27,805 nt of DNA from a virus: IMG/VR virus record IMGVR_UViG_3300024336_000041, positions 1 through 27,805 of that record. One strand, 5' to 3'. Positions 1-27,646 of the stretch are shown here, piece after piece. Below the pieces are notes generated by a model. The model was not told where the DNA came from, did no database searches, and saw nothing but the letters and a program-made list of their open reading frames with translations. A program made the translations under genes and the position numbers. Positions within the stretch are counted from its first letter, which is position 1, and the number at the start of each line of letters is the position of its first letter.

Positions 1-1265
1 ACAATAAAGTTAGCACCACCACGAAGTGTTTTCTGATGGATTGCATTAGAAACACTCTGTAGTTTGTTACCTAATGTCTGGAACCAAGTTCCCTTGGTGT
101 ATGCAGATGCATTAGCTGAGGACTCTGCGAACAACTTAGTTGTCGAATTGTACTCATAAGCAGGGCGAGCAGACCAGTACTCTGTCTTTGCTGAAGCGTT
201 AACTTTAAGCATGTCAAGAATTTCAAGGTCGATTTCCATCGTGATATACTCTGACAACATAGCAGTCAATTCAGCCTCGGCGTCTACTGAGTGATATGCG
301 TTTAAATCTTGAGCAAGTTCAGGTGTCCAAACAGCTTTCAATTTACGAGTTTTAGCAACGATAGGGATGCTCTTCATTTTGATGTCGATTTCAGGAATAT
401 CAACATCGTCTGCACTGTTAGGTGAAGGTACGGTGAAGGTAGTCTGTTCGAAATCACCACGAGTAATGTCCGTAGGCAACTTGTGGTATTTAAGTGTTAA
501 TGAACCGGAGAATGCGCCTGAGCCTGCAGGGTCTACGATAAATGAAGCACTTGTTGCAGTTACGCTTGTGTACGCTGGGTACATAGCTGTAACCTGTGTT
601 GCAGTAGCACCGACAAGACCTGAACCTGAAATTACGAAAGCTCTTACGCCATCCCAATCAGCATCAGATGTTTGTCCTCTACCAAAGGAAACCTTGAAAA
701 GGTTGCTAAGGCTTGAAGATAGTGCGGCGTCAAATTCAACATCTTCCCAAACAACGGAAGCAGATGACCAGCTACCATCGGCGATAGTGTCAGTTGTGTC
801 ATTGATGGTATATCCAAATTTACCTGCGCCGTAAAGACCGCCTGTAGCATCACCCGAAGATGAAGTGTTACCATAAATGTCAGTGTTAGTTGTGAATCCA
901 GCCTGTGCAGTTCCATACTTGAAATCCAAGTAGAAAATAAGACCTGAAGGCAGGTTCATTGGTTGTACAGAAACGAATTCCTGTGCGGCAAGTTCGCCGA
1001 AAATACGACGTACAAGCGGTAATGCTACACCACTCCACTCTTCCGAGTTTGATGCTGTACCAGTTTTTGAAGATTCATCAATAAGCTGACGTGCTTGGTT
1101 CTCAAGCAAGACGGCCATATTGTTAACGGCATTATCAGATGCCAAACCTTCAAGAAGTCCAGTTGGTTCCCATTTCCCAACAAGAGCTTTAGATTCCTCT
1201 AAGCGTCTGCGTTGTGGGGAATAGCCTTCCATTAGACTTTCAATTGTGTTCATTGAATTACTCAT
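1..1265 (-). CDS. 23: Major capsid protein, T4 gp23-like (C-terminus outside window)
   Basis: This gene builds the hexamers of the head shell. About 421 codons are visible, open to the window edge, so the C-terminus is missing. The middle reads like T4-type gp23: TRKLKAVWTPELAQDL, then HSVDAEAELTAMLSEYI and MEIDLEILDM. The N-terminal region has KWEPTGLLEGLASDN and NMAVLLENQARQLI, as in T4-like marine phages. LLE39 before G40 fits the gp21 cleavage rule and could be where the N-terminal arm is removed (LME13 before G14 is an alternative). The start is ATG at 1265, preceded by AGGAGAACTTAA. It lies 14 bases downstream of the scaffold gene, the usual gene 22-23 order. No in-frame TGA occurs in the visible part. 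Identity rests on remembered family motifs; I am confident of it. Confidence 0.95.
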   Translation of the reverse strand, partial: MSNSMNTIESLMEGYSPQRRRLEESKALVGKWEPTGLLEGLASDNAVNNMAVLLENQARQLIDESSKTGTASNSEEWSGVALPLVRRIFGELAAQEFVSVQPMNLPSGLIFYLDFKYGTAQAGFTTNTDIYGNTSSSGDATGGLYGAGKFGYTINDTTDTIADGSWSSASVVWEDVEFDAALSSSLSNLFKVSFGRGQTSDADWDGVRAFVISGSGLVGATATQVTAMYPAYTSVTATSASFIVDPAGSGAFSGSLTLKYHKLPTDITRGDFEQTTFTVPSPNSADDVDIPEIDIKMKSIPIVAKTRKLKAVWTPELAQDLNAYHSVDAEAELTAMLSEYITMEIDLEILDMLKVNASAKTEYWSARPAYEYNSTTKLFAESSANASAYTKGTWFQTLGNKLQSVSNAIHQKTLRGGANFI

Positions 1266-3400: not shown

Positions 3401-3401
3401 A

Positions 3402-4399: not shown

Positions 4400-4401
4400 A
4401 T

Positions 4402-4862: not shown

Positions 4863-4872
4863 CTTATTCTCC

Positions 4873-5619: not shown

Positions 5620-5883
5620 CTAATTATTAATATATGTATTCGAGTAATTTGCCCAATCCTCAAATGCATTTAAGATGTCCGCTACACCAGATTCCGTAGA
5701 ATCCGAATATTTATCATTCAATTTTTTGATTTCTTTTTTTCCTCAGTTTTTAATTGGACCCTTAGATTTATATTGCTGTACCAAATCCTTTTTATATTTC
5801 TCTGCATCTTTTTTAGCGGATGCAAGTGTCGATTCTTTCAGCAACTCTTCTCTAATAATTTGTCTTAATTCTGATTTTTTCAT
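5620..5883 (-). CDS. Probable internal head protein, one in-frame TGA
   Basis: An 87-residue product starting MKKSELRQIIREELLKE followed by STLAS; LKE17 before S fits the cleavage rule. The body is helical and charged (AKKDAEKYKKDLVQQYKSKG), then IKN, TGA (5743-5745, codon 47), GKKEIKKLNDKYSDSTESG, and a C-terminal stretch with a normally encoded Trp (NAFEDWANYSN) ending in TAG. Without recoding the gene would stop half way. Its ATG overlaps the TAA of the upstream gene (TAATG). No known domain was recognised. Confidence 0.82.
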
Positions 5884-6680: not shown

Positions 6681-6929
6681 CTATCCTAAATATGGTTCCA
6701 CGAACCCAAGCTTTTCCACAGTTTTCATGTACGCATCTAAAGCCTTTTCCATCTTTTTGGCATGTGCATCATGTTTTTTATCCCATTTTTCAGATTTTTT
6801 CATTTTCTTAATAAACTTCTCAAATAGCGAGTATGTCTTGGTATAATAATCATCCAAATCTAAGCCCGCATCTGACCGTTCCTTTAAAAGCTCTTCTTTA
6901 ATCATTTGTCTTAATTCTGATTTTTTCAT
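6681..6929 (-). CDS. Small helical probable internal head protein
   Basis: An 82-residue product starting MKKSELRQMIKEELLKE followed by RSDAG. LKE17 keeps the I/L-x-E core, with Arg after it. The mature part is one long Lys-rich helical stretch (KTYSLFEKFIKKMKKSEKW, HDAHAKKMEKALDAYMKTV), suggesting a DNA-binding or condensing role like other basic internal head proteins (inference). The ATG at 6929 overlaps the TAA of the upstream gene (TAATG); the stop is TAG. Confidence 0.8.
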   Translation of the reverse strand: MKKSELRQMIKEELLKERSDAGLDLDDYYTKTYSLFEKFIKKMKKSEKWDKKHDAHAKKMEKALDAYMKTVEKLGFVEPYLG

Positions 6930-7138
6930 TAGTCGTCCCATCCGCCTTTTTCGGCCATTTTAACCAATTTGTCCCATTCTCCACCCATGGACTTTTTAAC
7001 TTTTTTCCATGCTGTTTTGTCGGTGCGTTCGATGGTTCTAAAATACTTATATAGCTGTTCCCAATTAGGTTCCAAATTTATGGTTTTAAATTCTGAAATG
7101 ACCTCTTTAATTACTTGTCTTAATTCTGATTTTTTCAT
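6929..7138 (-). CDS. Small basic probable internal head protein
   Basis: A 69-residue product starting MKKSELRQVIKEVISE followed by FKTINLEP. ISE16 fits I/L-x-E, but Phe follows, so the exact cut is uncertain. The body is rich in Lys and Trp (EQLYKYFRTIERTDKTAWKK, then WDKLVKMAEKGGWDD). Both ends overlap the neighbours as TAATG, which suggests coupled translation through 7138 and 6929. No known domain was recognised. Confidence 0.78.
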   Translation of the reverse strand: MKKSELRQVIKEVISEFKTINLEPNWEQLYKYFRTIERTDKTAWKKVKKSMGGEWDKLVKMAEKGGWDD

Positions 7139-9803: not shown

Positions 9804-10241
9804 CTAATTAAAGCTTCTATATCCTATTTCATCCTCTAACATTGGAAATGCTTTTTTACTTTTAAACTGAAATGAATCTTCTGGGTCACCAGATTTACTT
9901 GCTAAGTCTGTATATGAAACGGTAAAAAATGGTTTCAATATTGCTTTCAACTTTGCAGTTTGTTTGGGGTCACTAATTACATCCAAATACAGTTTACTAT
10001 CACTATTTTCAATGCTCGCATCCAAATCTACCCCTTTTAATTTTTGACCTTTTTTTGCGGCGGCTATTGCGTTTTTAAATTCTGGAATTTCCTTTTGAAG
10101 TTTCGCCAATTTTTTTACTTCATCTTCCGTTTCTTTCAAATCGCTCAAAACGTTTGCAAAATTGGTTTCATTTAATGGCCGTTTCCCCTTGGAAAATCGT
10201 CCCCAGTTTTTGTCTATTGATTCGTATAATTCTCTTTTCAT
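9804..10241 (-). CDS. Probable internal head protein, second N-terminal class (ELYESIDKNW)
   Basis: A 145-residue product starting MKRELYESIDKNWGRFSKG, then RPLNE followed by TNFANVL. The start at 10241 is set by AAGGAG six bases upstream. The first 13 residues are paralogous to the gene at 11577-12152 (MNKELYESIEKN-TGA). Here the aligned Trp is TGG, which makes this gene the internal control for reading TGA as Trp. PLNE may be the cleavage site. The body has a Lys-rich helix and an acidic, strand-rich C-terminal half (LYLDVISDPKQTAKLKAIL). The stop is TAG. Function unknown. Confidence 0.78.
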   Translation of the reverse strand: MKRELYESIDKNWGRFSKGKRPLNETNFANVLSDLKETEDEVKKLAKLQKEIPEFKNAIAAAKKGQKLKGVDLDASIENSDSKLYLDVISDPKQTAKLKAILKPFFTVSYTDLASKSGDPEDSFQFKSKKAFPMLEDEIGYRSFN

Positions 10242-10251
10242 GTTAAACTCC

Positions 10252-10569
10252 TTATTGGTCATGTATTTCTATTGTTATTTCATAAAGTACGTCAGAACCG
10301 TGGCCGTCATCAGCATATACTTCAAGTTTGCTTGTACCGTTTCGTCCAGAATATTCATTTTCCAACGCATCTTTGCCTCAGATTTTTGTTGCCATTTTTA
10401 CTATACCGTTATGAAGCTTTTCAGCATCGGTGCTTCAAGGATATTTACGCTCTTGAAGAGTTTTATTAGCATGAGCCGCTGTTACGTCTGTAATGGTCGC
10501 CAATGGTTGTCCAAACTCATGGTCTCATGCGTGCTCACTTAATAAATCTTTTAATTTTGTCTTTTTCAT
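10252..10569 (-). CDS. Probable internal head protein with three in-frame TGA codons
   Basis: Found only when TGA is read as Trp. The 105-residue frame starts MKKTKLKDLLSE followed by HAWDHEFGQPLATI (first TGA at codon 15, 10525-10527). It continues ERKYPWSTDAEKLHNG (codon 45) and MATKIWGKDALENEYSG (codon 64), and ends EVYADDGHGSDVLYEITIEI, TAA. The N-terminus is a variant of the MKKSEL peptide with LSE12 as a possible cut. AGGAG precedes the ATGs (10572 or 10569); I chose 10569 for better spacing. It fills the gap between two neighbours exactly. The C-terminal half looks like a small beta-rich domain; no family was recognised. Confidence 0.8.
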
Positions 10570-10578
10570 CATGGTCTC

Positions 10579-11088
10579 CTAAAAGTTGGTGGTCAATTCA
10601 ATAGAGGTTTTGGCGTTTCCCCAAAATCCACGTTGGCGTGTTAATTTATATCGTTTAACCATTTGCTTAACATATTTTTTAGCATCCGGCTCGTCATCAA
10701 AAGATTTACGTTCAAGCGTTTCATCTTTGGCGTTCTGGGAATATTTCCCAGCTACCTTTTCAATTGTAACAGTAAATTTGGCTTTAGCTTCTCCAAGTCG
10801 AGGCGGCGATGATTTCCAATTATAGTGTTTATCTACCCAACCGTATACATCATCTTCGGAGACTTTTTTGCCTGCCTTACGTTCAAGCTGTTTCCAGTAT
10901 TTAACCAGTTGAGCTTTTCGCTTGCGAACGTGTGATGCCGAAGCCTCTCCATCTTGGTGCAAATTCTCGGGTTCAAGTGCCATTAGCGTCCCAACAAACA
11001 ATTCTTTGAGCTTATCTGAAATATCTTTAGCTTCTAATATTTTAGTTATCTCTTCTCTAATAGTCTGACGTAATTCTGATTTTTTCAT
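10579..11088 (-). CDS. Two-module internal head protein with targeting peptide
   Basis: A 169-residue product starting MKKSELRQTIREEITKILE followed by AKDIS; ILE19 before A fits the rule. The first module (to about residue 105) is helical and basic (VRKRKAQLVKYWKQLERKAG, then DDVYGWVDKHYNW). A second possible site, PRLGE followed by AKAKF, precedes a strand-rich module (FTVTIEKVAGKYSQNAKD, then KTSIELTTNF). This layout suggests one precursor giving two packaged peptides (inference). The stop is TAG, directly in front of the AGGAG of the next gene. No enzyme motif is visible. Confidence 0.8.
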   Translation of the reverse strand: MKKSELRQTIREEITKILEAKDISDKLKELFVGTLMALEPENLHQDGEASASHVRKRKAQLVKYWKQLERKAGKKVSEDDVYGWVDKHYNWKSSPPRLGEAKAKFTVTIEKVAGKYSQNAKDETLERKSFDDEPDAKKYVKQMVKRYKLTRQRGFWGNAKTSIELTTNF

Positions 11089-11090
11089 CT

Positions 11091-11360
11091 CTATCTGCCA
11101 TACTTTGTTTTCATAATTGTGTCATTAATCAATCGGTCGATTTCAGACCATGCGCTTTCCCATGTATCTTCCATATCTTCAATTGGAAGTTTTGCTCGGA
11201 CTTTATCTTCAATTTCTTGTTGATTAGCATATGGTGAGTCTTTCATCACTTTGGCCACGGTTTTTTTAATCATATTTTTGTATTTGACGCCGATGGTACG
11301 GGCTTCATTCAATGACTTAATTTCTTCCCTAACTATTTGTCTTAATTCTGATTTCTTCAT
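11091..11360 (-). CDS. Small probable internal head protein
   Basis: An 89-residue product starting MKKSELRQIVREEIKSLNE followed by ARTIG; LNE19 before A is canonical. The mature part of about 70 residues is helical (VKYKNMIKKTVAKVMKDSP, then EDTWESAWSEIDRLINDTI). The start at 11360 overlaps the TAA of the upstream gene (TAATG) and matches the shared motif; a longer frame to 11408 only runs into that gene. The stop is TAG. Confidence 0.82.
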   Translation of the reverse strand: MKKSELRQIVREEIKSLNEARTIGVKYKNMIKKTVAKVMKDSPYANQQEIEDKVRAKLPIEDMEDTWESAWSEIDRLINDTIMKTKYGR

Positions 11361-11572
11361 TATTTCCCTTTCGACGCATCTTGTTCTAACAATGCCAATT
11401 TGCGCCACATTGAATCAGATGAATAGTCGGAATTTCCAGCGTTTGATAATTGTTTAATACGAGCATCCATTGCCTTTATAATCGCATCGGCTGTCGCTTT
11501 GCTATCTTTTTTGTCATATGTAGCTTCGTTAAGCTCTTCTCTTATCATTTGTCTTAATTCTGATTTTTTCAT
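11360..11572 (-). CDS. Small probable internal head protein, paralogue of the gene at 4668
   Basis: A 70-residue product starting MKKSELRQMIREELNE followed by ATYDK; the peptide is shorter than in most copies, with LNE16 before A. The C-terminal half (IIKAMDARIKQLSNAGNSDY, ending LLEQDASKGK) is the full-length form of what is cut short at 4668-4862. The stop TAA overlaps the next ATG. Function unknown. The paralogy shows that genes of the island arise by duplication of both peptide and body. Confidence 0.82.
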   Translation of the reverse strand: MKKSELRQMIREELNEATYDKKDSKATADAIIKAMDARIKQLSNAGNSDYSSDSMWRKLALLEQDASKGK

Positions 11573-11576
11573 TATA

Positions 11577-12152
11577 CTAATCCTTATCTACTATTTTTAT
11601 TTTTGGTAATATACCAGAGAAAAATCCTCGCTTTGGCATGGGTTTTGAAAATCATTTTATAGCTTCTTGTTTATATTTTTTAAGACTGCCCTCTACTGCA
11701 TTTTTTAATTTAAGTCTTTGGACTCCTATTTCATGTTTATCGCTTTCTCCATATCCGCTTTCCAAAGAAAATGTTTTATCTTTCCATGGCTTAGTTTGGG
11801 ACATATCAGGACTTTTTTTGCGTAAATAATCTATAAAGATTTTTGACGGTGCCTTTGGCTCCAATCACGCATGGATGTCAAGTGAATTGCGCAGTCCGCT
11901 TTTTAGCCTGATAGTAAATGCCACAATCAACATTTTGTTCCCAATATCATATTTTGCAAACACGGAACGGTCCGTGTTAGGACTGTATTTATAAATTTTC
12001 GTGGTGAATCCTTGCTTTATGGCATTTTTATTCGTCAACTCCGTATAATTGTCCAAAACGTCCCGAATGTTGGTTAGCTCGCTCAATACAGTGGCCTCAT
12101 TAACAAACTCTGCTCAATTCTTTTCGATTGATTCGTATAATTCTTTATTCAT
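11577..12152 (-). CDS. Probable internal head protein with three in-frame TGA codons
   Basis: A 191-residue frame seen only with TGA = Trp. It starts MNKELYESIEKN, TGA (codon 13, 12114-12116), AEFVNE followed by ATVLSEL. The paralogous N-terminus at 10241 has Trp (TGG) at exactly this position. Further TGA codons are at codon 96 (11865-11867, SLDIHA-W-LEPKAPSK) and codon 167 (11652-11654, QEAIK-W-FSKPMPKRG). It ends LPKIKIVDKD, TAG. VNE18 before A resembles a cleavage site. The middle is strand-rich (MLIVAFTIRLKSG). With the standard code this would look like two short frames. It lies just downstream of the protease that would process it. Confidence 0.85.
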
Positions 12153-12155
12153 TGA

Positions 12156-12767
12156 CTATCCCCTGATAATATCGTTAATAAGTGATTCTACTTTACACCA
12201 CTTGCCACATGTTCTATCTTCAACCTCATGCTCCACGCCCTCTTTCATTGGGTGTAAAAATGCACCGTGGGTGGATGGGTTGCTTACAAAATCAAATGCA
12301 ATCAACTCAAAATCATCCTGAACCTCTTGTGCATCACCATTGGCTTCACTTTGTTGTACAGAACCGAGACCTCTTGATGAAATGCCCAATTTAATTCCGG
12401 CTTCAAATAACTTGCGCAATATGTTTCCGGACGGGGTTTCAAGTATCTCAACTGTTCCAACCAAGCTGTCACCCTCAAAGTGCATCTCGGTAATATTATG
12501 TGATACGTTCTGCAGGTTGACTACTGAGCTATCGGGGTGGTCTAATTCACCCATGGCACGTTTCTGTGCAATGAAGTTTTTGTGGTAATTTTTTGATTCA
12601 CGAGCCAAAATATTCATTGGATAGACTCTACCATTTTGATTTTTGGAGTCCGCCCTTTGAAGTACGCCCTGAACCAGCAATCGTCCGCCGTGCTCTTTTT
12701 TAGATTCGTTAATTTGTTTTTGGGTAAACTCGAATGGTAGGCAATCTACTATAAGTTTTCTATCCAT
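12156..12767 (-). CDS. 21: Prohead core protease, T4 gp21-like
   Basis: Serine protease of the prohead that cleaves scaffold, capsid protein and internal proteins at I/L-x-E sites. The 203-residue product carries MGELDHPDSSVVNLQNVSH with the probable catalytic His (about residue 77), and GIKLGISSRGLGSV with the probable catalytic Ser (about 130-131), then FELIAFDFVSNPSTHGA. These match the T4 gp21 / herpesvirus-assemblin-like prohead protease family, and the length is near T4 gp21 (212). The start is ATG at 12767 with AGGAG eight bases upstream; it overlaps the end of the upstream core gene. The stop is TAG. Its substrates are presumably the many LNE-bearing proteins encoded immediately downstream. 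Confidence 0.94.
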   Translation of the reverse strand: MDRKLIVDCLPFEFTQKQINESKKEHGGRLLVQGVLQRADSKNQNGRVYPMNILARESKNYHKNFIAQKRAMGELDHPDSSVVNLQNVSHNITEMHFEGDSLVGTVEILETPSGNILRKLFEAGIKLGISSRGLGSVQQSEANGDAQEVQDDFELIAFDFVSNPSTHGAFLHPMKEGVEHEVEDRTCGKWCKVESLINDIIRG

Positions 12768-13290
12768 GAACGCTCTCCTTTTCAAAATCTTGTGCGTATT
12801 TGAGTGCTAATTTCGCTCGCTCTTTTTTTGGAAACATTATATTCCACTGTCCGCTGTTCTGTTTTGCATATCGAATTGCACCTTGTTCAACAAAATACAA
12901 AAATGGTTTTAATGCGTGTGATAATGTAAATTTTCCTTTATCCACCATCCCATAAAGTTGTTTGATAATCGGCAATTTGATAGCTTTTCTCATTTGAGCG
13001 TTATCATCAATAAATGCTTTTAAATCTTGCAAGTCATCTGATAGCGCAATGTCTGCTTCGTATAATTTTGCTATATGTTTACTGTTCTTTTTAACTTTTT
13101 TATAGTCAAACACCTCTGGGTCTTTATGACCATTGGCATGACCTGTTTTTTCTCGTTTTTTATTTGAGCCAAATGCGTGTGGAGTTTGATACTGACCCTC
13201 GCCGCCGTCAATGTTGCCGGTTGCGTTGGCTTCCTCTATCTCGGATTGAATTACACTCCGTACAAGACGACGTAATGCCTTATTGTCCAC
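12760..13290 (-). CDS. Probable prohead core protein upstream of the protease
   Basis: A 176-residue product, starting at GTG (13290) with GAGGGG upstream: MDNKALRRLVRSVIQSEIEE followed by ANATG. This N-terminal helix ending in IEE before A is another likely core-targeting/cleavage sequence. A Gly/Lys/Asn-rich linker follows, then a helical C-terminal half (KAFIDDNAQMRKAIKLPIIK, then ALKPFLYFVEQGAIRYAKQN). Its place just before the protease gene corresponds to the small core genes (67, 68) of T4, but I cannot equate it with either. It overlaps both neighbours by a few bases. The stop is TAG. Confidence 0.65.
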   Translation of the reverse strand: MDNKALRRLVRSVIQSEIEEANATGNIDGGEGQYQTPHAFGSNKKREKTGHANGHKDPEVFDYKKVKKNSKHIAKLYEADIALSDDLQDLKAFIDDNAQMRKAIKLPIIKQLYGMVDKGKFTLSHALKPFLYFVEQGAIRYAKQNSGQWNIMFPKKERAKLALKYAQDFEKESVHG

Positions 13291-14170
13291 ATGAATTCCC
13301 CTCTTTCAGGACGGTATTTATCTCACGGGTCAACTGATAATGTCTCATCAATTTGACAACGTGCTCATCTTTAACAATACTACCTTCGGTAAGGGTGTCT
13401 ATCTGAGTTATTACCTCATCCAGTTTAATTTTTGTAATTGGGTCATCCACTCTACCATGAAGCTTTTTGAGTACACCCTTTACACGGGATACTTCACTCG
13501 TAATGAATTCTTTTAAATGATTTGTATTTGAGATATTGTTAATGTACTCACGCAGTAGTTTTTTCTGACATGAATTCAAGCTGTTGTTATATTTTGAATT
13601 GAATTTTTCAACCAACATTTTGTATGATAGCAGGCGAAGGTCTTTCTCTTCTTTCCTGAAATCATCAAGTAATGTAGCCTTTGCACGGGCTTTGATTGGA
13701 GTCTTTATGATATGCTCAATCACATTAAAGCGATTATCCATAGACTCCGTTAAACTAAATACTCCGTTTGCGGATTCTGCCAAAAATAATTTATAAATTG
13801 AAGCATAAACTTTAAATTCTGGTATTCGGGCGTTGAAAAAATCAGCAATATTATAATGCTCTTTAATCTCTTTGATTAGGTTGTATTTTTCACGTTTTAA
13901 GTCTGCGTTGCGCAGTCGCTGTCTTGATACAATTACAGCATCCACGAGCTTATCCGCTCGGGCTTCTGATGTGTATTTTTCCGTTGTTAAAATTTTATAC
14001 AACTGTACCTCTTTACCAAGTGCTGTGTTGGCACTAAAAAACTTTTTAATAAGCGGAATTGCTATAGAATCCTTTTTATTATTCAGCACATCTACCGTAA
14101 TTTGCCTCGAAAGCAACTCAAACAATAGCCCCGAATTCTTAATTTTGCTGTGTCGTAAGTTCTTACCCAT
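13280..14170 (-). CDS. Conserved protein of the portal-protease interval (head-core region)
   Basis: A 296-residue helical protein starting MGKNLRHSKIKNSGLLFELL, followed by SRQITVDVLNN, then KREKYNLIKEIKEHYNIADF and KVYASIYKLFLAES. I recall very similar proteins, of unknown function, next to portal and protease genes in marine T4-like phages. No enzyme motif is visible; a structural or assembly role in the head is inferred from position. The start at 14170 has GGAG nine bases upstream and overlaps the stop of the endonuclease-like gene. The stop is TAA. Confidence 0.72.
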   Translation of the reverse strand: MGKNLRHSKIKNSGLLFELLSRQITVDVLNNKKDSIAIPLIKKFFSANTALGKEVQLYKILTTEKYTSEARADKLVDAVIVSRQRLRNADLKREKYNLIKEIKEHYNIADFFNARIPEFKVYASIYKLFLAESANGVFSLTESMDNRFNVIEHIIKTPIKARAKATLLDDFRKEEKDLRLLSYKMLVEKFNSKYNNSLNSCQKKLLREYINNISNTNHLKEFITSEVSRVKGVLKKLHGRVDDPITKIKLDEVITQIDTLTEGSIVKDEHVVKLMRHYQLTREINTVLKEGNSCGQ

Positions 14171-14777
14171 AATATAAATCTCCGTTATTACGTTCATATA
14201 TAATTATAAATTCACAGCCTAATAATTCCGTTATTTCACGCTGTCGTTGTAAATCTTTGGATTGTTTTGACATATGACATGGTTCATAATATTCAATTAC
14301 CACATTTTTTTCTGAGTCATACCCATCCACTCAATATCCCAATTCCTTAATATGAAACTCGCCGCCAGTTTCAGCATGTTGGAAATTATATCCGTAGTCT
14401 TTACCATACTTGTCTATCAATTGACACGCAGTTGGGTTGTAGTTTGGTGCCATTTGACCGTGAAGCTTCTCTTTATATGAAATCATAGCTAATCTATTTT
14501 TCTGTCTAATTTCCGGCGTCCGTTCATATGATGAATCAAACTTAAACCCCAAAGTTTTACCAGTGTTTGAACATGAACAACATACTTTATTATCACGCAT
14601 TGAATAAATAAATGTATATTTATTTGAATATGACATTAGCTCATTGCACGTCGGACATGCCTTTTCATATGGCGCAATTACATCTTTATATTTACCCCAA
14701 CTGGCATATCCAGTTTTGTTTTTGTTTCAAGGAGTCATTCCTTTTACAAAACATCCTGAATTCACTTGTTTATCCAT
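14163..14777 (-). CDS. Homing-endonuclease-like protein (zinc finger, NUMOD3-like start, Vsr-type nuclease end)
   Basis: Read with TGA = Trp, 204 residues. Residues 14-27 (MTPWNKNKTGYASW, TGA at codon 17) match the PWNKGKTG motif found in phage homing endonucleases. CPTC (41-44) and CCSC (66-69) form a zinc finger. The C-terminus (GYWVDGYDSEKNVVIEYYEP from about 147, TGA at codon 149, then RQREITELLGCEFIIIYE) has the acidic VDGYD...E layout of the very-short-patch-repair-like nuclease fold of phage free-standing homing enzymes. Such enzymes cut a cognate site in related genomes and spread their gene. It sits alone between portal and core genes, a typical insertion point. GGAG precedes the start; TAA overlaps the next ATG. 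Cleavage activity is inferred. Confidence 0.82.
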
Positions 14778-14841: not shown

Positions 14842-16692
14842 TTATTCTGCAGGTGAATCATTTTGTAAATCCTCTTTATATTCTGCCTCAATATCCTGTG
14901 CCTCTGACAATATTTTTTTATTTGTATCTACGAATTTCTTGCCAAGCTGAGCTACCAACCCATCATAATTGGCAACCTGTAATGGCTTACCAAATTTAGG
15001 GGAACTCATTCCCGCTTTTCTCTTTTCGTGTGCTCCAAGTGGGTCTCGCCCGTTAATTGAACTGTCCTTACCATATTTAGGACCTTCTTTTGGACGACCA
15101 GAACCTGGCCACCCGCCTTTTGGCATTTCCTCACCCTCTTCTTGGAATTCGCTTCCATCCCTATCGGAATTTTCATCTGCATCCAACATAGCACCCTGTG
15201 TACCGATTGCTTCATTTGATTTCAATGGGTCATTACCCTCGTCCTCAATCTGTTGCCATCTGAACGCACGTTTCTTGTCTTTCAACTGTTGCAGGCGAAT
15301 TTCATTTTTTTCTTCAGTTGTGAATTTGAAAATATTGTCGTACAGCCATTCAGATGGCAATAAATTGTCCTGCAATGCCGAACTTGCGGCTGACAATTTA
15401 TTGACAAGCAATTCAATCTTCTCTTCTTCATATATTGTGGATGGGTTTGTCAACTCTAATTCGAATGACAATAATTTTTCATCAGTATATCCTTGAGTGA
15501 ATAGATGGACAACACCAATCTTTTTCAATTCTGCCACGATTGTACGCTGAATTCTCTCAATGGTACGAGCAAACCTTACATCTTCTGCGGCCAATGTTGC
15601 TTTACTGTTCAAAGCATCATCATAACCAAGGAAAGCCTTCGGCACTTTAAGAGCCGCAAGCATTTTATTTTTAAGATACTCAAGGTCATCGGTCATTTGA
15701 TATTCCAATCCACCAAGCGTATCAATTTCTGTTCCACTATCTCCACCACGAACGGGTAGGAAAAAGTCTTCAGTAAGATTTTGCATATTATAGCGTAAAT
15801 TGTAATCGCCGGTCTGTTGGTCCATAATCGGTGTCTTTTTCATTTTAGACATCATGGACTTCATGAACGGTTCAACCTCATGTGGTGATAGCGAGCCAAT
15901 ATCAACCTTGAAAATTCTCTTCTCAGGAGCACGCATGATTCTGTGAATCAACATAGCATCTTCCATCAAGGTCAACTGCTTCCAAACTTTACGGGCACCC
16001 TCAATCATTGATTTGCCGTATGGCAAGTAATTGGAATCAGCATTTAGTCTAAAGTGTGCGATTTCGTATTCTTGAAGCTGTTCGACATTCTCACCCTTGA
16101 TTGAGCCAAGTGTTTCGCCCTGTCCCAATTGGAAAGTTACTTCATTTGGCTTGGTTGGGTCGATGCCCTCCAAACGAACTACATCATAGACGGAAAGCGG
16201 TATGATATTATATACACCATAGCCTTCCTTCAACATCATGTGTAAAAAGAAATCGCCGTATTTACAAAGGTTGCGAACTCATGGCCACAGATTGAACTCT
16301 ATGTTCATAATTTCATAAAATAGGTTATACAGGATTTCCTTGACTTCCTCATCATCTGATATGATAGTCAAAACGTCTCCGTATTCAGATTTCAAAGTTG
16401 ATTCGTCTGCATAGATATCCAATGCCGATGCTAAAATCGCATCAGAATCCATTTGCTCGTAGTCTTTGAACAAAGCCATACGCTGACCTGCCTGATAGAA
16501 TTGCATCGCTTTACCGGTGCTTCCTGCCATCGAGGAGTACATTCTACTGTATCTATCCAAGTAATTCTTTGCTGATTTGGATTGAAGCTGATTTGTATCA
16601 ATTACTTTTAGTTTACGTCCACCTTTGTGCCGGATTATTACCTGTCCACCAAATAGTCGTTTTAACTCGCCTCTAAAATTTCGTTCTGCCAT
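14842..16692 (-). CDS. 20: Portal protein, T4 gp20-like
   Basis: Forms the dodecameric ring at the capsid vertex through which DNA is packaged. The 616-residue product is split in the standard code by a TGA at 16279-16281. Read as Trp, the sequence is EFNLWPWVRNLCKYGDFFLH, matching the conserved WPW-like segment of T4-like portals. Other family stretches are FDYEQMDSDAILASALDIYA-like wording (KDYEQMDSDAILASALDIY), RAPEKRIFKVDIGSL and LKVPKAFLGYDDALNSKATL. It is longer than T4 gp20 (524), with a Gly/Lys/Arg-rich C-terminal extension (GGWPGSGRPKEGP). The start ATG follows AGAGGTAATATAG, and the stop is TAA. It directly follows the terminase gene. Confidence 0.95.
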
Positions 16693-16709: not shown

Positions 16710-18287
16710 TTATTTTAATCATGTCAAACTTTCGGGGTTGCCGTTAACGTCCCATGACCAACCCTCTGGAATCGCATTATCGTCCTGCGTATATACTCCG
16801 GAGTGTTGTAGGGTCTGGCCAAGAATTTGTTTTTGTAATTCTCTGCCGTCGGTTCTCAATTTAAGTGCTGTGTCCCGCACCCATAGTGCAATTGCCAAAC
16901 TCATCACCAAATCATCATTATAGCCTTTTGCCGCACCTGTACGATTTCCATCATATATGAAAACGAATAATTCATTGATTAGTCGTTTTGAATGTATCGT
17001 CACTGAGCGGTCTCTAAAATATTCATCCAGCTTGGCGATGATTAATGGTCGTGTTTTTGATGTGGTTGTAAATCCTGGCAACATTTTGCGGTCTTGCGCA
17101 TTGTGCTTATTTGTCAAATGTTGCTTTACATCAATATATTGAAAATCCTTGGTTGAATAAAATAAATTTTTGTAATCTCTCTGAATTACCTGTTGCAATG
17201 TTGCCCATCCAAGTGTATTATTCTCTACTATAAGTAGCGCATCATTATATTCTGTTGAAATATTCACTAATAAATCACCGAACATCTTGGTATCAATTTT
17301 GCCCTTATACTCAGCAACCTGTTCCATTGTATCAATGTTGAATATATGGAATGCTGAAAAGTCCTTTGCATCACCACGAGCAACATCAGCACTTACTACA
17401 TAAGATGCTTCAGGCTCTGGGTGTTTCCATATCCAAGTGTTGGTGTCCATACCACGGGTTTCAATTGGGTCGTGCACATGCTTTTCGTTATATTCTTCGA
17501 TTACGGCACCAGGGATTACAGTACGACCTGAACTGATAAAGTCACAGTCATTTTCCTGTGCGGCCAAATCTGGGTCACCGAGTCTACGCTCTTCACCATC
17601 ACGCCACTCTTGGTCACGGTCTGGGTGAACGTCTCATTTTAAAAATATGGGGTTAAAATCGTTTTCGTGGGTTTCCGCTTTGGCCCATGTGGAATGGAAC
17701 CAGTTACCAATACCGTTTGGTGTACTTAATGCAATACAGTCTCCACCAGTCGATAGAGTTGGTTGTGCGGCGGCTCAGATAGTGTCAACACTCGGGATGA
17801 ATGCGGCCTCATCAAGAATAAGCAGTGACAAACCTTCAGAACGTGCGGCATCATCCGAAGATGTTTCAGCTACGACCTGTGAACCATTTTTATATCTAAG
17901 GGAAAGTTTATTGTCTTCAATACATGTGGATTTTAATCATGTAGGAAGGTTGGCGTGCATAACTCGGACTTTGGTTACCAAGTTACGAGCCTTTGATTGT
18001 TTTGTTGCAATTACTAAAATATTTTTATCTGTGTGGAAGGTCATCAATCATAAAGAGTATCCGGCGACAAGCGTGGATAGCCCAAGCTGTCTTGCTTTCA
18101 AAATGATGTTGTAGCGGTTTGACATGAAATCCTTAATCGCATCCGACTGGAAATCATACAGACTAAACTGAATTTTTCCTTTTATCGGGTGCTGAATAAT
18201 ACAATATTTCTTCATGAAATATTCCGGACTTAATCCACATTTCACTCACTCGCTTTTTATCATTTCCTTATAATTGTTGTTACTCAT
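16710..18287 (-). CDS. 17: Terminase large subunit, T4 gp17-like, with six in-frame TGA codons
   Basis: The packaging motor ATPase and headful nuclease, 525 residues when TGA is Trp. ATPase: KARQLGLST (about 64-72, Walker A region) and LLILDEAAF (Walker B, D159-E160), then LSTPNGIGNWFHSTW. Nuclease: VVSADVARG (D301), LLIVENNTLGW (E355) and GYNDDLVMS (about D458). TGA codons are 14, 80, 117, 171, 218 and 523. At codons 117 (LPT-W-LKS), 171 (DTI-W-AAAQPTLSTGG) and 218 (FLK-W-DVHPDRDQEW), T4-like terminases as I remember them have a conserved Trp. The last one extends the C-terminus by three residues to TAA. The start at 18287 overlaps the upstream stop as TAATG. No small-terminase gene is evident in the window. 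Confidence 0.96.
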
Positions 18288-19200: not shown

Positions 19201-19616
19201 TATGGCGTATATGTCTTCATGCGCTTTTGCACAAATTTTTCTATATCCTTTGGGTCAAGGTCAGAAAACTTTTCATCAACATACAAAAAGCCTTTAGCCT
19301 TTTCATAATTAGCTGGCACGTCGTCGTCCATGTTATCAAATTCATTTGGCAAATACGATACCAATATTGTATATCCGGTGTCTTTCCACTGAACTTTACC
19401 ACGACCTGAAATTTTGAAGGCTCGTATCATTAGTCCGAAGCCTCGACCAGGATTATCATATCGCCTAAACCACCCGTCCGTCTCTAACCGATACCACGCA
19501 TTCTTTGCATCAAAGTTCCTATCGAGCGTCATCCTAATATTAGCATGGTGCCCATCAGTTGGCTTATTGAGTGCAGATTTTACGCCTCCCTCAGTTATCA
19601 GTGATGTCAATTTCAT
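19200..19616 (-). CDS. Probable packaged protein, N-terminus MKLTSLITE
   Basis: A 138-residue product starting MKLTSLITE followed by GGVKSAL; ITE9 before G fits the gp21 rule, and the short hydrophobic peptide belongs to the MLKLxxLLxE-like class seen on genes at 24840, 26296 and 27646. The body is a mixed domain with many aromatic residues (AWYRLETDGWFRRYDNPGRG, then TGYTILVSYLPNEFDN). Both ends are TAATG overlaps with neighbours. No known domain was recognised; packaging is inferred from the N-terminus. Confidence 0.72.
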   Translation of the reverse strand: MKLTSLITEGGVKSALNKPTDGHHANIRMTLDRNFDAKNAWYRLETDGWFRRYDNPGRGFGLMIRAFKISGRGKVQWKDTGYTILVSYLPNEFDNMDDDVPANYEKAKGFLYVDEKFSDLDPKDIEKFVQKRMKTYTP

Positions 19617-20038
19617 TATAATTGACCCTTATCTTTTTTATACGCCTGTTTTGTCAGCAAAATTGCCGCTTTAATTAATGTTTTTGGGTCTTTTTGGGCA
19701 GAAGTTTTAAATGATATTGGCTTTTCCCACTGACGCTGTATGGTAAACGATATATTACCATTTTTCATAAACCAAGTGTATTCTCCAAAAAAGTCGTGGG
19801 TCGATTCATGACCTTCGTACTTATAATGTGCATACACTGCCATGACGTGCCCATCTTTACCATTGGCCGCTTCCGTGTCAACCTGTGGTGGCTCGGGATT
19901 CCAATGCAATCTCAAAAATTGGGTATGAAATGCATCCTCTATCTTTTCTAAATCTGGAACACTTTCTATATTTGTAAATTTTGGTGCCTCGTTTAGAATT
20001 TCTTCACGAACCATTTGTCTTAGCTCCGATTTTTTCAT
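19616..20038 (-). CDS. Probable internal head protein with MKKSEL targeting peptide, outside the main island
   Basis: A 140-residue product starting MKKSELRQMVREEILNE followed by APKFT; LNE17 before A is canonical. This copy lies upstream of the terminase, about 7 kb from the main island, so the peptide is used across the genome. The body is rich in His, Trp and Tyr with beta-like stretches (GHVMAVYAHYKYEGHESTHD, then NGNISFTIQRQWEKPISF) and ends in a Lys-rich helix. A probable promoter lies in the gap at 20102-20113. The stop TAA overlaps the next ATG. Function unknown. Confidence 0.8.
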   Translation of the reverse strand: MKKSELRQMVREEILNEAPKFTNIESVPDLEKIEDAFHTQFLRLHWNPEPPQVDTEAANGKDGHVMAVYAHYKYEGHESTHDFFGEYTWFMKNGNISFTIQRQWEKPISFKTSAQKDPKTLIKAAILLTKQAYKKDKGQL

Positions 20039-20101: not shown

Positions 20102-20113
20102 ATATATAAATAT
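20102..20113 (-). promoter_or_regulatory. Probable promoter upstream of the 20038-18287 gene run
   Basis: Third copy of minus-strand ATATTTATATAT, with a 16-base match (20102-20117) to 14811-14826. It begins at the stop codon of the zinc-ribbon gene and lies 64 bases before the ATG at 20038, in a 74-base gap. No hairpin or other signal was seen in that gap. Confidence 0.5.
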
Positions 20114-20673
20114 TAAACTTCCAATAATTCTGCCGTAACTGCCTCAAGTTGTGCTTTAAATTCGTTAATTGCTTCAGCGGCCTTTTCAGCGATGTTTCCG
20201 GTGTTAATATCCCACTTTTCTTCAACAATATTATGGCCATCTGGGGTGATTTGATTAAAAAACGTTAAGCTATGCTCCTTTGTATATTCCTCAATCTGGG
20301 TGATTTGCTCCAGCAACCAACTGCGCTTATTTTCCAACATAATACGCTTTTCATACGCCTCATATGTACCGGCTATGCGCATTTGGGTCTCATCCTTTAC
20401 CGTACACTCAAAACATTTTCTCCGACGATTTCAGAACTTGGTATCTAATTTATTATTCATGATGTAATCACATTCAGGACAGAACATGGGCATTCGTAAC
20501 TCACGCAACATTGCATTGCGCTCTTCTTGCTCTTCTTTTTCTTTGGCTTTTTGCTTTCTGTATTCTACTATTACGGGGTCTTTATCATCTCACGCAAATG
20601 ATTGTATTTTCTTATCAGGGTTTTTGCCCTGTAGAATATTTTTTAGTGCTTTATCTTCGTTTCCATGTGCCAT
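20113..20673 (-). CDS. Zinc-ribbon protein with two in-frame TGA codons
   Basis: 186 residues when TGA is Trp (codons 28 and 81). It begins MAHGNEDKALKNILQGKNPD, has a Glu/Lys helix, then CPEC (65-68) and, 19 residues later, CFEC (87-90). That four-cysteine zinc ribbon is interrupted by LDTKF-W(TGA)-NRRR. A helical stretch follows (AGTYEAYEKRIMLENKRSWL) and an acidic C-terminus. I recall proteins of this pattern, without known function, in T4-like marine phages. Only residues 98-186 are open in the standard code. The start has GGAG and good spacing; the stop is TAA. The ribbon could bind nucleic acid or a protein partner. Confidence 0.78.
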
Positions 20674-20688
20674 TATAACTTCTCCTTT

Positions 20689-22008
20689 TTAAACATTAAA
20701 CTCGTCTTTCAATTCTTTTATCTTAGTATCACCGAGTACAAAATGCAATATGTTGATATACACATCGTCCCAATTTTTTGTGCTTAGGTCGGTTTTTATG
20801 CGATAATGCATATCAAATTCTCGTGAAATTGCGCTATCGGTTACCAATATTACACTATCTCCCAATCCATCGGTACTTGTGGCAAGCCACTTAGCATTGA
20901 TTGCATCTAATTTCATCCTATACTCAGCAAGTACCAAATCCATCATATCAAGCGTTTTAGACACGGATTGGGATATCCGATTTTCGTCAATCATATCATC
21001 AACAATTACTTGCAGAACATCATTGATACCCTTATATGTATAAGTAGCATCTAATTGAGATTTCATAAAAAAATTGTCCCTCGCCTTTTCAACGACCTTT
21101 GAGAAATTTTTCAAAATGTCGGCATTTCCGAAGATTTGCTCCTTAATTTGTTTGAGCACACTACGATGTAGATTTTTAATCTGCTGTGAAACTTTATGCT
21201 GTTCCATATTAGCACCGGTGAACCCATCTTTGTCAACGATTTTGACTATGAGATTATTTGTTGGGTCTCGAACTATCAGACCTTCGGGTGTGATATTGCC
21301 AAACATGGACGTTCGCCCGACCAATAATTCAGAAATAAATTGAGCCTTGATATTATTCATGACAGTCTGAATTGCAGATTTTGCTTTCAGCTTGAGTTCC
21401 TTATCAATCTTTTTTCGGGACACCAAAATGTCAGAATATTTGTCATACAGCCTCTTCAAAAGATTGAGATGCCTGACCTCAAATGCGTCAATCTCTATGA
21501 TAGGTTTTGGGTATACCTGCCAGTACCCCGACCCCCTCAGTCCGAAACACATTGATAGGATATCTAACATATCTGTTACGGATTTACCATCAACTTTAAC
21601 ATCAAAAATTACAGCGGCACCATGACTACCAATCCAACCATCAGCATATCGCAGTGTATTGGTCTGGGCGGTTGGTAGCAATTCTGCAAATACTTGTACA
21701 TGGGAACATTTCATTGCGTCTTTATATGTTTTATATACTTCCATCCTCTCGCTGATTCCAGTATGAAATCGTTTGATGCCCTGCATGAATGGAATATCAC
21801 CATAGAAGTCAATATCATATACCGGCTTGGACTTTTTGGTTTTGGTGAAAAACGTATCGGTGTCATCGGTGCCAAATGAAATATTTTGGCCATCAATTTT
21901 TTCAGAAATTTCAAGAAGATTCGGGTCCTTGAATGCGTCCACAAACGATATGAAATCCTGTGGCTTCAGTTCATCCATGTGTATGATTTTATCCATTGCA
22001 ACTGTCAT
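20689..22008 (-). CDS. ATP-dependent RNA/DNA ligase-like protein
   Basis: A 439-residue protein with the adenylyltransferase motifs of ligases: EKIDG (K37 would carry AMP), FAELLPTAQTNTLRY (motif III region, about 108-121), EGLIVRDP (motif IV, 242-249) and VKIVDKDGF (motif V, about 255-263). Family knowledge: such enzymes seal nicks in RNA or DNA through a ligase-AMP intermediate. The C-terminal part (270-439) is helical and unrecognised. Substrate choice cannot be read from the motifs. Neighbouring CCA-adding and other nucleotidyltransferase genes make RNA repair a reasonable guess. Start and upstream stop overlap as TAATG; the stop is TAA. No in-frame TGA. Confidence 0.82.
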   Translation of the reverse strand: MTVAMDKIIHMDELKPQDFISFVDAFKDPNLLEISEKIDGQNISFGTDDTDTFFTKTKKSKPVYDIDFYGDIPFMQGIKRFHTGISERMEVYKTYKDAMKCSHVQVFAELLPTAQTNTLRYADGWIGSHGAAVIFDVKVDGKSVTDMLDILSMCFGLRGSGYWQVYPKPIIEIDAFEVRHLNLLKRLYDKYSDILVSRKKIDKELKLKAKSAIQTVMNNIKAQFISELLVGRTSMFGNITPEGLIVRDPTNNLIVKIVDKDGFTGANMEQHKVSQQIKNLHRSVLKQIKEQIFGNADILKNFSKVVEKARDNFFMKSQLDATYTYKGINDVLQVIVDDMIDENRISQSVSKTLDMMDLVLAEYRMKLDAINAKWLATSTDGLGDSVILVTDSAISREFDMHYRIKTDLSTKNWDDVYINILHFVLGDTKIKELKDEFNV

Positions 22009-24847: not shown

Positions 24848-26296
24848 CTATTTCAATTTCTTGTATAATTTATCAGTGATTGCAAATGCTTCTTTTGTAG
24901 TCAAATTTGGCTTTTCAAACATAACCTCTTCAACTGCTTTCTTTAAAGCCCCAATCAATCGACCATCAAGCTTTTTATCCAATTTATAGCGTTTGATAAT
25001 GTGATTCCCATCAATCGGCGTCATTAGTTTTCCGCCAGAACCCATATCCAAAAATTTTAAACGAGTTTTAATCCCGCCGATTTGGTTTGGTAGGTTGTAC
25101 GCATCTGCGTGACTCTCATTGTCAGCATGGATTACATTCAGAGTATCTTCCAAGTGCTTGCCCAAATCTTTCTTCAATTTGCGCAGTGCTTTATCAGAAA
25201 TAATTTCTCCCTCGGAACCCGCAGGCTTCAATCTCATATGGTTTCCAATTGCAGTCTTAACCGCTTTGATAATTGCATTATCGTATGAAAGCCGCTTCAT
25301 AATAGAACCGGCGATATCTGCGGAAATCAACTCATGCTTATAAAAATGGATTTCACCGTCTATAATAGTCTGAGCGTCGGCCTTGCCGATATCGTGCATC
25401 AGCCCTGCAAGTCTGGTAATAACGGATGGTTTGGTTTTACTCAACACCTCAAGGGTGTGACCCATCACGTCCCATTTGTGATATTTATTTTGCTTCAATC
25501 CGTTCAATATTTCCAATTCAGGCATAACGTGCTTAATTAAACCAGTGGCTTGCATGATTCGGATTGCTTGTTTTGGCCTTTTACTCACAAGCATCTTATT
25601 CAATTCATCTCGGATGCGCTCGTTTGAAATTGTTGGAAGCATGTTCGCATTGCGCTTCATTGCCTTAATCATGAACATAGGCAAATCCCAACCGTATTTA
25701 ACCGTGAACCTGACTGCTCGCAACATGCGGAGTGGGTCATCGGAAAAAATAACATCTGGGTTTAATGGGGTTTGGACAACACCCCGTGCGATATCTTTAT
25801 GCCCCATGCCGGTTAAATCGAGGATTTCTCCAGTCGTTAAATCTTTCAAAAGACTATTAACCGTGAAATCTCTTCGTTCAACATCCTGTGCAAGCGTTCC
25901 GGCTTTCACCTTTGGCTTGCGGGAACCCCGTTCGTATTCCTCTGAGCGAGTCATAACCGCTTCAAATTCAAGCTCGGAAATATCCAAGCCTTTATGAACA
26001 ACCCTATATAGTTGAAATTTTGCTGTTCCAAATTTTGGATAGATAACAGGATTTGAGCCTTTTTTGTAAACGCCCACTTTCTTGCAAATCCATTCTGCGA
26101 ATTTGATTCCGCCGTCTGGCAGTTCCACAACAAGGTCAATATCTTTTGGATTGAGTCCCATTACTTGGTCACGAACATACCCACCGGCAATATACACCTT
26201 ACCCTTGAATGGTGATTTTTTCACCATCATGGATAGATAGTCCTCAGCCGCCTTTTCAAGCCTGCCCTCTAATAATAATTCAGTCAATTTAAGCAT
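24848..26296 (-). CDS. CCA-adding-type tRNA nucleotidyltransferase with HD domain, behind a targeting-like peptide
   Basis: A 482-residue protein of the bacterial poly(A) polymerase/CCA-adding class: GGYVRDQVMGLNPKDIDLVV (38-57, the G-G and DxD active site), RRDFTVNSLL (141-150), SDDPLRMLRAVRF (185-197), NERIRDELNKML (225-236) and an HD domain (AGLMHDIGKA, H301-D302, with H280). Such enzymes restore the CCA end of tRNAs or, in other members, add A tails. The N-terminus MLKLTELLLE followed by GRLEKAA is unlike a cellular enzyme start and fits a peptide cut at LLE10 before G, so the enzyme may be packaged and injected (inference). No TGA interrupts it. The stop TAG precedes the next ribosome binding site. 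The enzyme class is clear; CCA versus poly(A) specificity is not. Confidence 0.88.
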   Translation of the reverse strand: MLKLTELLLEGRLEKAAEDYLSMMVKKSPFKGKVYIAGGYVRDQVMGLNPKDIDLVVELPDGGIKFAEWICKKVGVYKKGSNPVIYPKFGTAKFQLYRVVHKGLDISELEFEAVMTRSEEYERGSRKPKVKAGTLAQDVERRDFTVNSLLKDLTTGEILDLTGMGHKDIARGVVQTPLNPDVIFSDDPLRMLRAVRFTVKYGWDLPMFMIKAMKRNANMLPTISNERIRDELNKMLVSKRPKQAIRIMQATGLIKHVMPELEILNGLKQNKYHKWDVMGHTLEVLSKTKPSVITRLAGLMHDIGKADAQTIIDGEIHFYKHELISADIAGSIMKRLSYDNAIIKAVKTAIGNHMRLKPAGSEGEIISDKALRKLKKDLGKHLEDTLNVIHADNESHADAYNLPNQIGGIKTRLKFLDMGSGGKLMTPIDGNHIIKRYKLDKKLDGRLIGALKKAVEEVMFEKPNLTTKEAFAITDKLYKKLK

Positions 26297-26347: not shown

Positions 26348-27646
26348 CTATTTTCAATGCGCTTGTGGATAATTTTTCTTACCATACTTGGTTCAAACAG
26401 CCTTAACTTTCTTCATCTGTTTGGTGGTTAAGTCATCTTTATACCCTTCCAAAAAATCATCAATGATAGAATCCATAGTCGTCTTTTTGGTTTTTGCTTT
26501 GGTGAAGAACCCTGCCATAAATGCGGGCTTTTCAACCCTGTGCAATAAATATTCCATTGGCGGTAAATCTGACGTTCCCTTCCGAGTGGTAGGCTTCTTT
26601 CGCATAATGTGTTGCGTGACATGCTCTATCTCATGTCGCACCGCTTCTTTTACTTCGGCTACAAAATCGTTCCAAGTCTCATCGGTAAATAGCAAAGTAT
26701 TTATAGCAATTTGTAACCCGAGTTCTAAGTATCTACCAAACGTAAAATTGAGTCTGGCAGTTTCCCCTTGAATTGCAAATGGCAATGCCGCCTTTTTCGT
26801 CTTGGTATATTTTATGAAAACTTCTAATGTAACATCATGCCCGAGAATATCAAGGTCTTTATCAAATCCTTTTTTCTTTTTCTTTACAGCGGAAATAATA
26901 ACTTTGGTTAAATCGGAAACTTGTTTGTCATACCGACCCTCAACCAACTCTGAAAATTTATATTTTGTTGACATGGCTTTTTGCTTTGCTGATAATCCCT
27001 TTTTTATCTTGCTGGACTTATTTTTAACCTTTTTCTTTAATAGCGGGGATGCGGTGTGCTGTTGATAAGCATCACTATCAAATTCGTGAGCCTTGCCCGA
27101 ATATTCTTTTATCGGTATCAACCAACCACGAACCTCAATCAACCAATCATCGGTAACTTTTCCAAGCTTTTTTTCTCTCATTGCTTTATTCAATGGAACG
27201 ATATATTTTTTCAAATCGCTCTTACTTGGGGTGGTTCAAAATGAAATCACTTTGGGTTTTATCCATATACGACCCGAATCTTTGGTTCAATCACCCACCG
27301 TAGAATTGCCCATTATGTTTCTTAAATCCACATGAGACCCCTTACCAACATATACCATATCATGTCGCTTAACAAATGAATATGCACTGGGAGAATATGC
27401 GTGCAATCTTTTCTTTTCAAACTCTATCTTATCTGGGGATTCCGTCAAATTCTCATCAAAAATATTGACCTGTTTGATAGTCCTGAAGTTGGTCATTTTT
27501 TTACCATTAATAATAAGCTGTCCATTGCTGTCAACACTCATCGTTTTTACAACGGTCTTTTTATTGCGAAATTTTCCCGTGAGAATGGTGTCACCAATCT
27601 CAACATCCAGTTCTACTTTTTCAACCAATGGTAGTAATTTAAGCAT
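26348..27646 (-). CDS. HExxH metallopeptidase-like protein, joined across four TGA codons
   Basis: With TGA as Trp (codons 120, 137, 418 and 431) two frames join into 432 residues ending in TAG. Residues 1-9 (MLKLLPLVE followed by K) form a targeting-like start. The first part contains RHDMVYVGKGSHVDLRNIMG and the join reads STVGDWTKDSGRIWIKPKV. After a Lys-rich linker, MSTKYKFSELVE followed by GRYDKQ (225-241) looks like a second targeting/cleavage site heading a C-terminal domain with AVRHEIEHVTQH (HEIEH at 338-342), the zinc-binding motif of metallopeptidases. The tail is KAV-W-TKYGKKNYPQAH-W-K. Two proteins would be released if the inner site is cut (inference). Peptidase substrate unknown. 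Confidence 0.78.

Follow-up and report, generated by a model that had tools for sequence, protein, structure and literature searches.

An opal-recoded lineage of T4-like phages with UGA enriched in late genes

Phages that reassign the opal codon UGA (genetic code table 4) are already known among some Crassvirales and in other groups, an example in the available portions of two reports being the zeta crAss-like phage Lera (PMC12386605, PMC11210395). According to the same portions, Lera-type phages place UGA at Trp positions of structural genes, a link of this usage to late genes has been proposed, and the Lera genome encodes a tRNA nucleotidyltransferase; each of these features recurs in the lineage described here, the nucleotidyltransferase in the window itself (PMC12386605, PMC11210395). 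The part of one survey at hand counts a tRNA(UCA) in 11 of 73 table 4 phages (PMC11210395), excerpts of another state that some such phages encode release factor 1 or a tryptophanyl-tRNA synthetase (TrpRS) (PMC10746230), and both relay the proposal of late-gene regulation through recoding. Phages of Mycoplasma and Spiroplasma also read UGA as Trp, as the present lineage does, and may merely follow the code of their hosts, as the accessible text has it (PMC11210395); the present lineage differs from them in that UGA is a minority Trp codon with a late-gene bias. Recoded viruses of marine cold seeps offer a further likeness, as a non-gut set in which stop codons including opal are reassigned, and differ in that the available part of that report gives only three opal events, most being of other stops, and places recoded genes mostly in replication, recombination, and repair (PMC10504277).

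We analyzed a stretch of 27,805 bases (the window), an entire IMG/VR contig whose gene content lies on the minus strand and includes a T4-like gene set in the order gp17, gp20, gp21, gp23. The window is a member of a genuine opal-recoded lineage of T4-like phages, a new family within an already known kind. Unlike Lera-type phages, this lineage is T4-like (gp17/gp20/gp21/gp23) and uses UGA sparingly, and no tRNA(UCA) was found in its fragments. The nearest isolates by terminase, Flavobacterium phage immuto (50.8% identity) and Microcystis phage Mel-JY01 (52.8%), are both T4-like; immuto reads as standard code, its coding density being unchanged under table 4, and in this it is unlike the window lineage.

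The terminase gene (Pfam Terminase_6N, 2.4e-10; PHROG terminase, 1.4e-46) first drew attention to the recoding. The original prediction, made from the window's letters, gave its coordinates and the codon numbers of six in-frame TGAs correctly and left unsaid that the frame lies on the minus strand; the plus strand of 16710-18287 is not open. TGA stands at codons 14, 80, 117, 171, 218, and 523, with no TAA or TAG inside the frame. As had been claimed, three TGAs occupy the Trp of T4-type terminase motifs, visible in the translation as LPTW (codon 117), TIWAAAQ (171), and KWDVHPDRD (218), and TGG is used in parallel, at nine codons.

16710..18287, minus strand: terminase large subunit (gp17-like), 525 amino acids under table 4, then TAA; six in-frame TGA
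18246..18248, minus strand: TGA codon 14; relatives have Tyr (56) or Phe (19)
18048..18050, minus strand: TGA codon 80; relatives have Trp (61) or Tyr (15)
17937..17939, minus strand: TGA codon 117; relatives have Trp (76/76)
17775..17777, minus strand: TGA codon 171; relatives have Trp (55) or Phe (21)
17634..17636, minus strand: TGA codon 218; relatives have Trp (76/76)
16719..16721, minus strand: TGA codon 523; relatives have Trp (35/35)

When the TGA sites were checked for residues other than Trp, codon 14 alone was without Trp in the relatives, which have Tyr or Phe there. The chance that at least five of six random codons would fall on the 12 Trp-majority columns is 1.4e-8, a figure that ignores the ease of TGG-to-TGA mutation. 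A scan of IMG/VR with the window terminase returned 80 relatives, four of them with in-frame TGA (L001, L002, L003, L036); over the stretch matching the window gene, TGA is absent from the remaining 76, and L073 has one beyond that stretch. Sequencing error as the source of the TGAs is ruled out by L001, which comes from a different metagenome and is identical in nucleotide sequence across the whole terminase gene, and by L036, which has the same two TGAs as the window within its part of the gene.

Other genes of the window vary widely in their TGA content.

3..1265, minus strand: major capsid protein gp23, cut by the contig end; no TGA, eight TGG
10252..10572, minus strand: gene with three TGA and no TGG, unreadable under table 11
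11577..12152, minus strand: gene with three TGA, one at the Trp of an N-terminal ELYESI-KNW peptide
12156..12785, minus strand: prohead protease gp21 (Peptidase_S77); no TGA
14842..16692, minus strand: portal (gp20-like); one TGA, codon 138 (16279-16281), Trp in 70/70 relatives
20113..20673, minus strand: conserved gene; TGA codons 28 (no conserved residue) and 81 (Trp 25, Tyr 13)
20689..22008, minus strand: RNA-ligase-like protein (PHROG 548, 4.1e-5); no TGA
24848..26296, minus strand: tRNA nucleotidyltransferase (CCA-adding type); no TGA
26348..27646, minus strand: gene of unknown function; four TGA, four TGG

The Trp of the ELYESI-KNW peptide, spelled with TGA in 11577..12152, is spelled with TGG in the neighboring gene 9804-10262. 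This peptide, found in those two genes, is the second N-terminal type of the window; the first, MKKSELRQIIREEI, is nearly identical in about eleven genes and may, as we suppose, resemble the capsid-targeting peptide of internal head proteins.

2668-3003, 3089-3412, 3402-4157, 4157-4408, 4668-4910, 4873-5181: genes with MKKSELRQIIREEI
5620-5883, 6681-6941, 10579-11088, 11091-11408, 19616-20038: further genes with MKKSELRQIIREEI

All 37 complete genes of the window end in TAA (23) or TAG (14), by construction, the genes having been listed under table 4; in gene 4402-4656 a TGA immediately precedes the TAA. Shifting the starts of six genes by eye, where upstream TGAs or overlaps were doubtful, lowered the window's TGA count from 35 to 29.

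Membership of the recoded group was assigned by several in-frame TGAs in terminase or portal. At least one TGA occurs in the aligned stretch of 55 of 220 loci, of which 16 were taken as recoded, two of these being overlapping duplicates; the remaining 39 have one or two, mostly in gene 13280-14197, and these were presumed to be natural stops. A portal scan enlarged the set by another group of recoded contigs, which includes G001, the 140,003-base contig of L093. In a 34-row terminase tree built with the TGA codons masked, all recoded rows joined (SH-aLRT 98), nested among standard-code rows; because the loci had been chosen by TGA, the masking makes this a test independent of the TGA-based grouping. 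The rows form sub-lineage A (the window, L001, L002, L003) and sub-lineage B (L083, L093, L118, L123, L125, L130). Helicase scans added contigs of the replication region to B (L253-L261, L282, L288) and to A (L281, which is G016, and L396), the latter two placed by resemblance, without a linked terminase, G016 also sharing a metagenome with L003. No end repeat was found in G001, none of the lineage contigs is shown to be complete, and a scan upstream of the window for an extension returned one contig, already known.

Several features of these contigs are recorded as side observations. The portal gene of B1 (L225:8088-11264, which is G001; L118, L130, L139) contains an intein (Pfam Intein_splicing, 8.5e-13), about 430 residues long and itself bearing TGA codons, and the portal match is split in L118, L130, and L139. 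G001 76548-77645, considered as a primase, is by Pfam a class II ribonucleotide reductase with an intein. G001 also carries, in tandem, three Mom-family DNA-modification genes (88698-91035; L229:8698-11035) and a DruA-domain protein (82022-83242).

Comparison across relatives bears directly on the meaning of UGA. In 13 of the 15 Trp columns of the terminase, at least one of the 14 recoded loci has TGA where another has TGG, and the other 134 loci have no TGA in the aligned terminase, partly by selection, since the grouping used TGA content. On the coding strand of G001, TGA sites with many homologs face Trp in 120/120, 131/131, 141/141, 83/83, and 103/118; the exceptions are one site facing Tyr (46), Phe (3), and Trp (1) and several sites with few homologs, which are mixed. 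We profiled 165 open reading frames of six contigs against 288 standard-code loci, with L289 excluded as doubtful. The residues facing 60 TGA columns were Trp (0.57), Phe (0.08), and Tyr (0.08), followed by Thr, Leu, and stops (0.03-0.05), a profile nearly equal to that of 382 TGG columns (Trp 0.65, Phe 0.09, Tyr 0.09); misfits are codon 28 of gene 20113-20673 and sites facing Lys, Leu, Glu, or Thr in few homologs. Coding density rises from table 11 to table 4 in the window (.639 to.758) and in G001 (.611 to.724 over 140 kb), while three standard-code controls go from.891 to.900, from.900 to.821, and from.791 to.796. Both gains reach the rise of 5-10% or more quoted as a sign of recoding (PMC10879173). 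The window and L002 terminases differ at 103 codons synonymously and at 13 nonsynonymously, pointing to purifying selection rather than decay. Given the homologous columns, the exchange of TGA and TGG, the purifying selection, and the coding density, UGA is almost certainly read as Trp in the window phage, and the claim of genetic code 4 is borne out.

That claim had been worded for the late genes, and here the enrichment stands whereas the exclusivity does not: UvsX, gp32, and ribonucleotide reductase genes also bear TGA, and the idea that the code is confined to late genes is rejected. In the refined gene set of the window, 29 of 123 Trp codons are TGA, where comparable two-codon pairs take A as the last base in 63% of cases (p 4e-18), and the spread of TGA over the genes is uneven (permutation p.0037). 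The TGA share of Trp codons by contig is 21-27% in A and 8-13% in B, hence 8-27% overall, against 67-77% of AAR/GAR/CAR codons ending in A. In both sub-lineages the late genes for structure and packaging use TGA more than the replication genes do (A, 47/171 versus 4/50, p.004; B, 51/263 versus 4/125, p 4e-6), in counts that are not independent because related contigs share descent. With one locus per gene, late low-copy genes again exceed replication genes in A (35/107 versus 3/38, p.0024), B1 (21/145 versus 2/63, p.016), and B2 (28/84 versus 2/62, p 3e-6), or 33, 14, and 33% against 8, 3, and 3%, and the capsid, sheath, and tube genes stand at 8, 5, and 8% (abundant virion genes pooled, 4/59), all in classes set from homology and position, some late genes being without known function. 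A capsid gene (G006) has TGA at an invariant Trp column. The UvsX genes of G001, G016, and G017 each have one TGA, with the same facing residues (Trp 11, Phe 39) in all three, apparently a single position that they have in common, whereas TGA sites elsewhere mostly come and go. The late-gene pattern fits the proposal of late-gene regulation by recoding, for which Borges 2022 is reportedly the original paper, and the bias could stem from slow UGA decoding instead of timing.

For infection of a standard-code host, the original prediction had called for a Trp suppressor tRNA and an adjustment of host release factor 2 (RF2). Neither a tRNA(UCA) nor a release factor was found in the lineage contigs, all of them fragments: ARAGORN, Rfam, a regular-expression search for the anticodon arm, and a twin-arm covariance model returned no tRNA(UCA), and the five records searched for release factor (PF00472) and TrpRS (PF00579) domains (G000, G001, G002, G006, G014) had none. 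Because all the contigs are fragments, the absence of the tRNA, of a release factor, and of TrpRS is weak evidence. One twin-arm model match, at G001 61661-61755 (E.001-.005), was rejected because of its position within a tail gene and the failure of its UCA arm to pair. The B contigs have tRNA-Gly-like genes (anticodons UCC and ACC) in tandem sets of two or three, three in G001, whose tRNA genes are of this kind only. Two of these genes (L229 1817-1889 and L337 1501-1572) share an anticodon loop of six bases, as read from the sequence by eye, and a T stem with two U-U mismatches, and they are conserved between B1 and B2. The nucleotidyltransferase and RNA-ligase-like genes of the window, together with a polynucleotide kinase-phosphatase gene in G001, fit tRNA upkeep; a tie of the nucleotidyltransferase, as a tRNA upkeep gene, to recoding is one that we infer. 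TGA and TGG codons do not differ in the base that follows them (83 and 547 codons, p.94), which leaves no trace of RF2 competition and tells to some degree against the model favored below.

A looser search of viral contigs for a UCA anticodon arm gave 118 stretches, from which 79 new loci and L252 were examined; ARAGORN called a tRNA(UCA) in 27 of these 80 among the matches listed. One of them, L506, is T4-like, 8,488 bases long, and has TGA in its sheath (four) and tube (one) genes, with coding density going from.36 to.73 under table 4. Its tube TGA column faces Trp (6) and Phe (2); the sheath columns face Phe (6) and Trp (4); Phe (6), Trp (1), Tyr (1), and Ala (2); and Gly (7), Asn (1), and His (1), with one unconserved. 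These alignments suggest a code with UGA as Trp on thinner evidence than for the window lineage. A grouping of L506 with the recoded family was rejected by the sheath tree (AU p.017; tube, p.057). The L506 tRNA has 95 bases, an A-U first pair, and G73, the latter two being features of Trp tRNAs, and after the UCA arm comes a second hairpin with the loop TCCAAA. The same second arm is present in 17 of the 21 tRNA(UCA) of at least 90 bases among the matches listed, or 18 with L454, whose loop is TTCCAAC; the other three we take to resemble selenocysteine tRNAs. This twin-arm structure, a UCA anticodon arm followed by a variable-region arm with the Trp anticodon CCA, is labeled tRNA-SeC by ARAGORN. 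An alignment of 18 sequences gives the second arm covariation support: 89% of its cells are paired, and at four of five pairs both sides change.

L432, L438, L441, L443, L448, L453, L454, L459, L472: loci of twin-arm tRNAs
L473, L476, L478, L481, L484, L487, L490, L498, L506: further loci of twin-arm tRNAs

No description of such a tRNA was found in the literature searched, outside which lay Borges 2022 and most subscription papers. Given the L506 tRNA(UCA), a phage-borne decoder appears feasible in a T4-like phage. That opal-recoded phages, T4-like ones included, use the twin-arm tRNA as tRNA-Trp, with the CCA arm as bait for host TrpRS and the window lineage's own copy unassembled, is a speculative and rather doubtful extension.

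The model that we favor, and consider probable by a modest degree, is that infection imposes the reading of UGA on a host whose own code is standard; it is better supported than a host with code 4. The host would use the standard code, and early genes would avoid UGA because RF2 first terminates there. A later factor, most likely a tRNA-Trp(UCA) from an unassembled part of the phage genome, would then read UGA as Trp, and this decoding would allow full-length terminase, portal, and tail proteins to be made.

The strongest competitor, to which we give about a one-in-four standing, is a host that reads UGA as Trp on its own, with the phage following that code, as Mycoplasma and Spiroplasma phages do. 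It would account for the lack of any UGA-reading tRNA, release factor, or TrpRS in the lineage fragments, for strong termination contexts after UGA not being avoided, and for UGA in the UvsX, gp32, and ribonucleotide reductase genes. Free reading, however, gives no cause for the scarcity of UGA in replication and abundant virion genes and no reason for UGA at just 8-27% of Trp codons; a native code 4 host would lead one to expect UGA to be preferred everywhere, and it makes up only that share overall and 3-8% in replication genes. The available portion of a survey of 46,384 bacterial species also places UGA as Trp only in Mycoplasmatales/Entomoplasmatales and insect endosymbionts (PMC8629427). 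Our own search of GTDB contigs with a tRNA-Trp(UCA) pattern gave 38 stretches, 35 of them named Mollicutes, which is weak evidence as the pattern was strict.

Improbable, in our judgment, is that host tRNA-Trp(CCA) simply reads through UGA, yielding mostly truncated products and little full-length late protein. The scarcity of UGA in high-output genes and the lack of a decoder in the lineage contigs suit this reading, yet six UGAs in the essential terminase would leave almost no full-length product, ordinary readthrough rates being too low for that, and the G006 capsid gene with UGA at an invariant Trp column stands against it as well. Decay of the terminase by nonsense mutation has next to no chance: TGG to TGA is one transition, so decay too would strike Trp codons, and the L002 terminase (96% identical and otherwise open) has a single in-frame TAA at codon 98, which counts against our observation; against this, 525 codons stay open in the window with six TGAs and no TAA or TAG, the same TGAs recur in independent metagenomes, the synonymous excess over L002 is large, TGA and TGG swap over 13 Trp columns, and the density and column pattern is genome-wide, all in keeping with the earlier judgment that the gene is not decayed. 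A reading of UGA as glycine (table 25) or selenocysteine is just as remote and is refuted for the lineage in general, though it may differ at single sites, for Gly and Cys are absent from the six commonest residues facing TGA columns, despite the tRNA-Gly-like genes of G001, with their UCC and ACC anticodons, and the accessible report of UGA being read as Gly in Gracilibacteria and in some phages of theirs (PMC10746230).

Translation signals bear on the identity of the host. Shine-Dalgarno motifs lie upstream of 47-67% of genes in recoded contigs, against 4 of 124 (3%) in immuto, 8% in G014, and 45% in G015. Compared with immuto, this frequency makes a Bacteroidota host unlikely, and the window host is probably not of the immuto-host type. 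Among the GTDB tRNA(UCA) matches, L367 was discarded as a host, being, by a reading of its genes, a mitochondrial contig binned with Flavobacterium, and L361 is another match. A contig of a Paceibacterota metagenome-assembled genome, L359, has a coding density that rises from.37 with table 11 to.84 with table 4 and carries a Trp-like tRNA(UCA), and an RF-1 domain was not found in its genome record; it is possible that L359 is a bacterium outside Mollicutes with UGA as Trp, or a misbinned contig.

Standard annotation fragments genes such as the window terminase and portal. With this lineage, the groups of phages that reassign UGA are joined by a family of T4-like phages that is represented by a 140-kb contig and has many close relatives with the standard code, so that the gain of a recoded stop can be studied in phages whose type of virion is understood best. 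In three sub-lineages UGA is common in late low-copy genes and rare in replication or high-output genes, and this split opens to testing the idea that late translation is timed by recoding.
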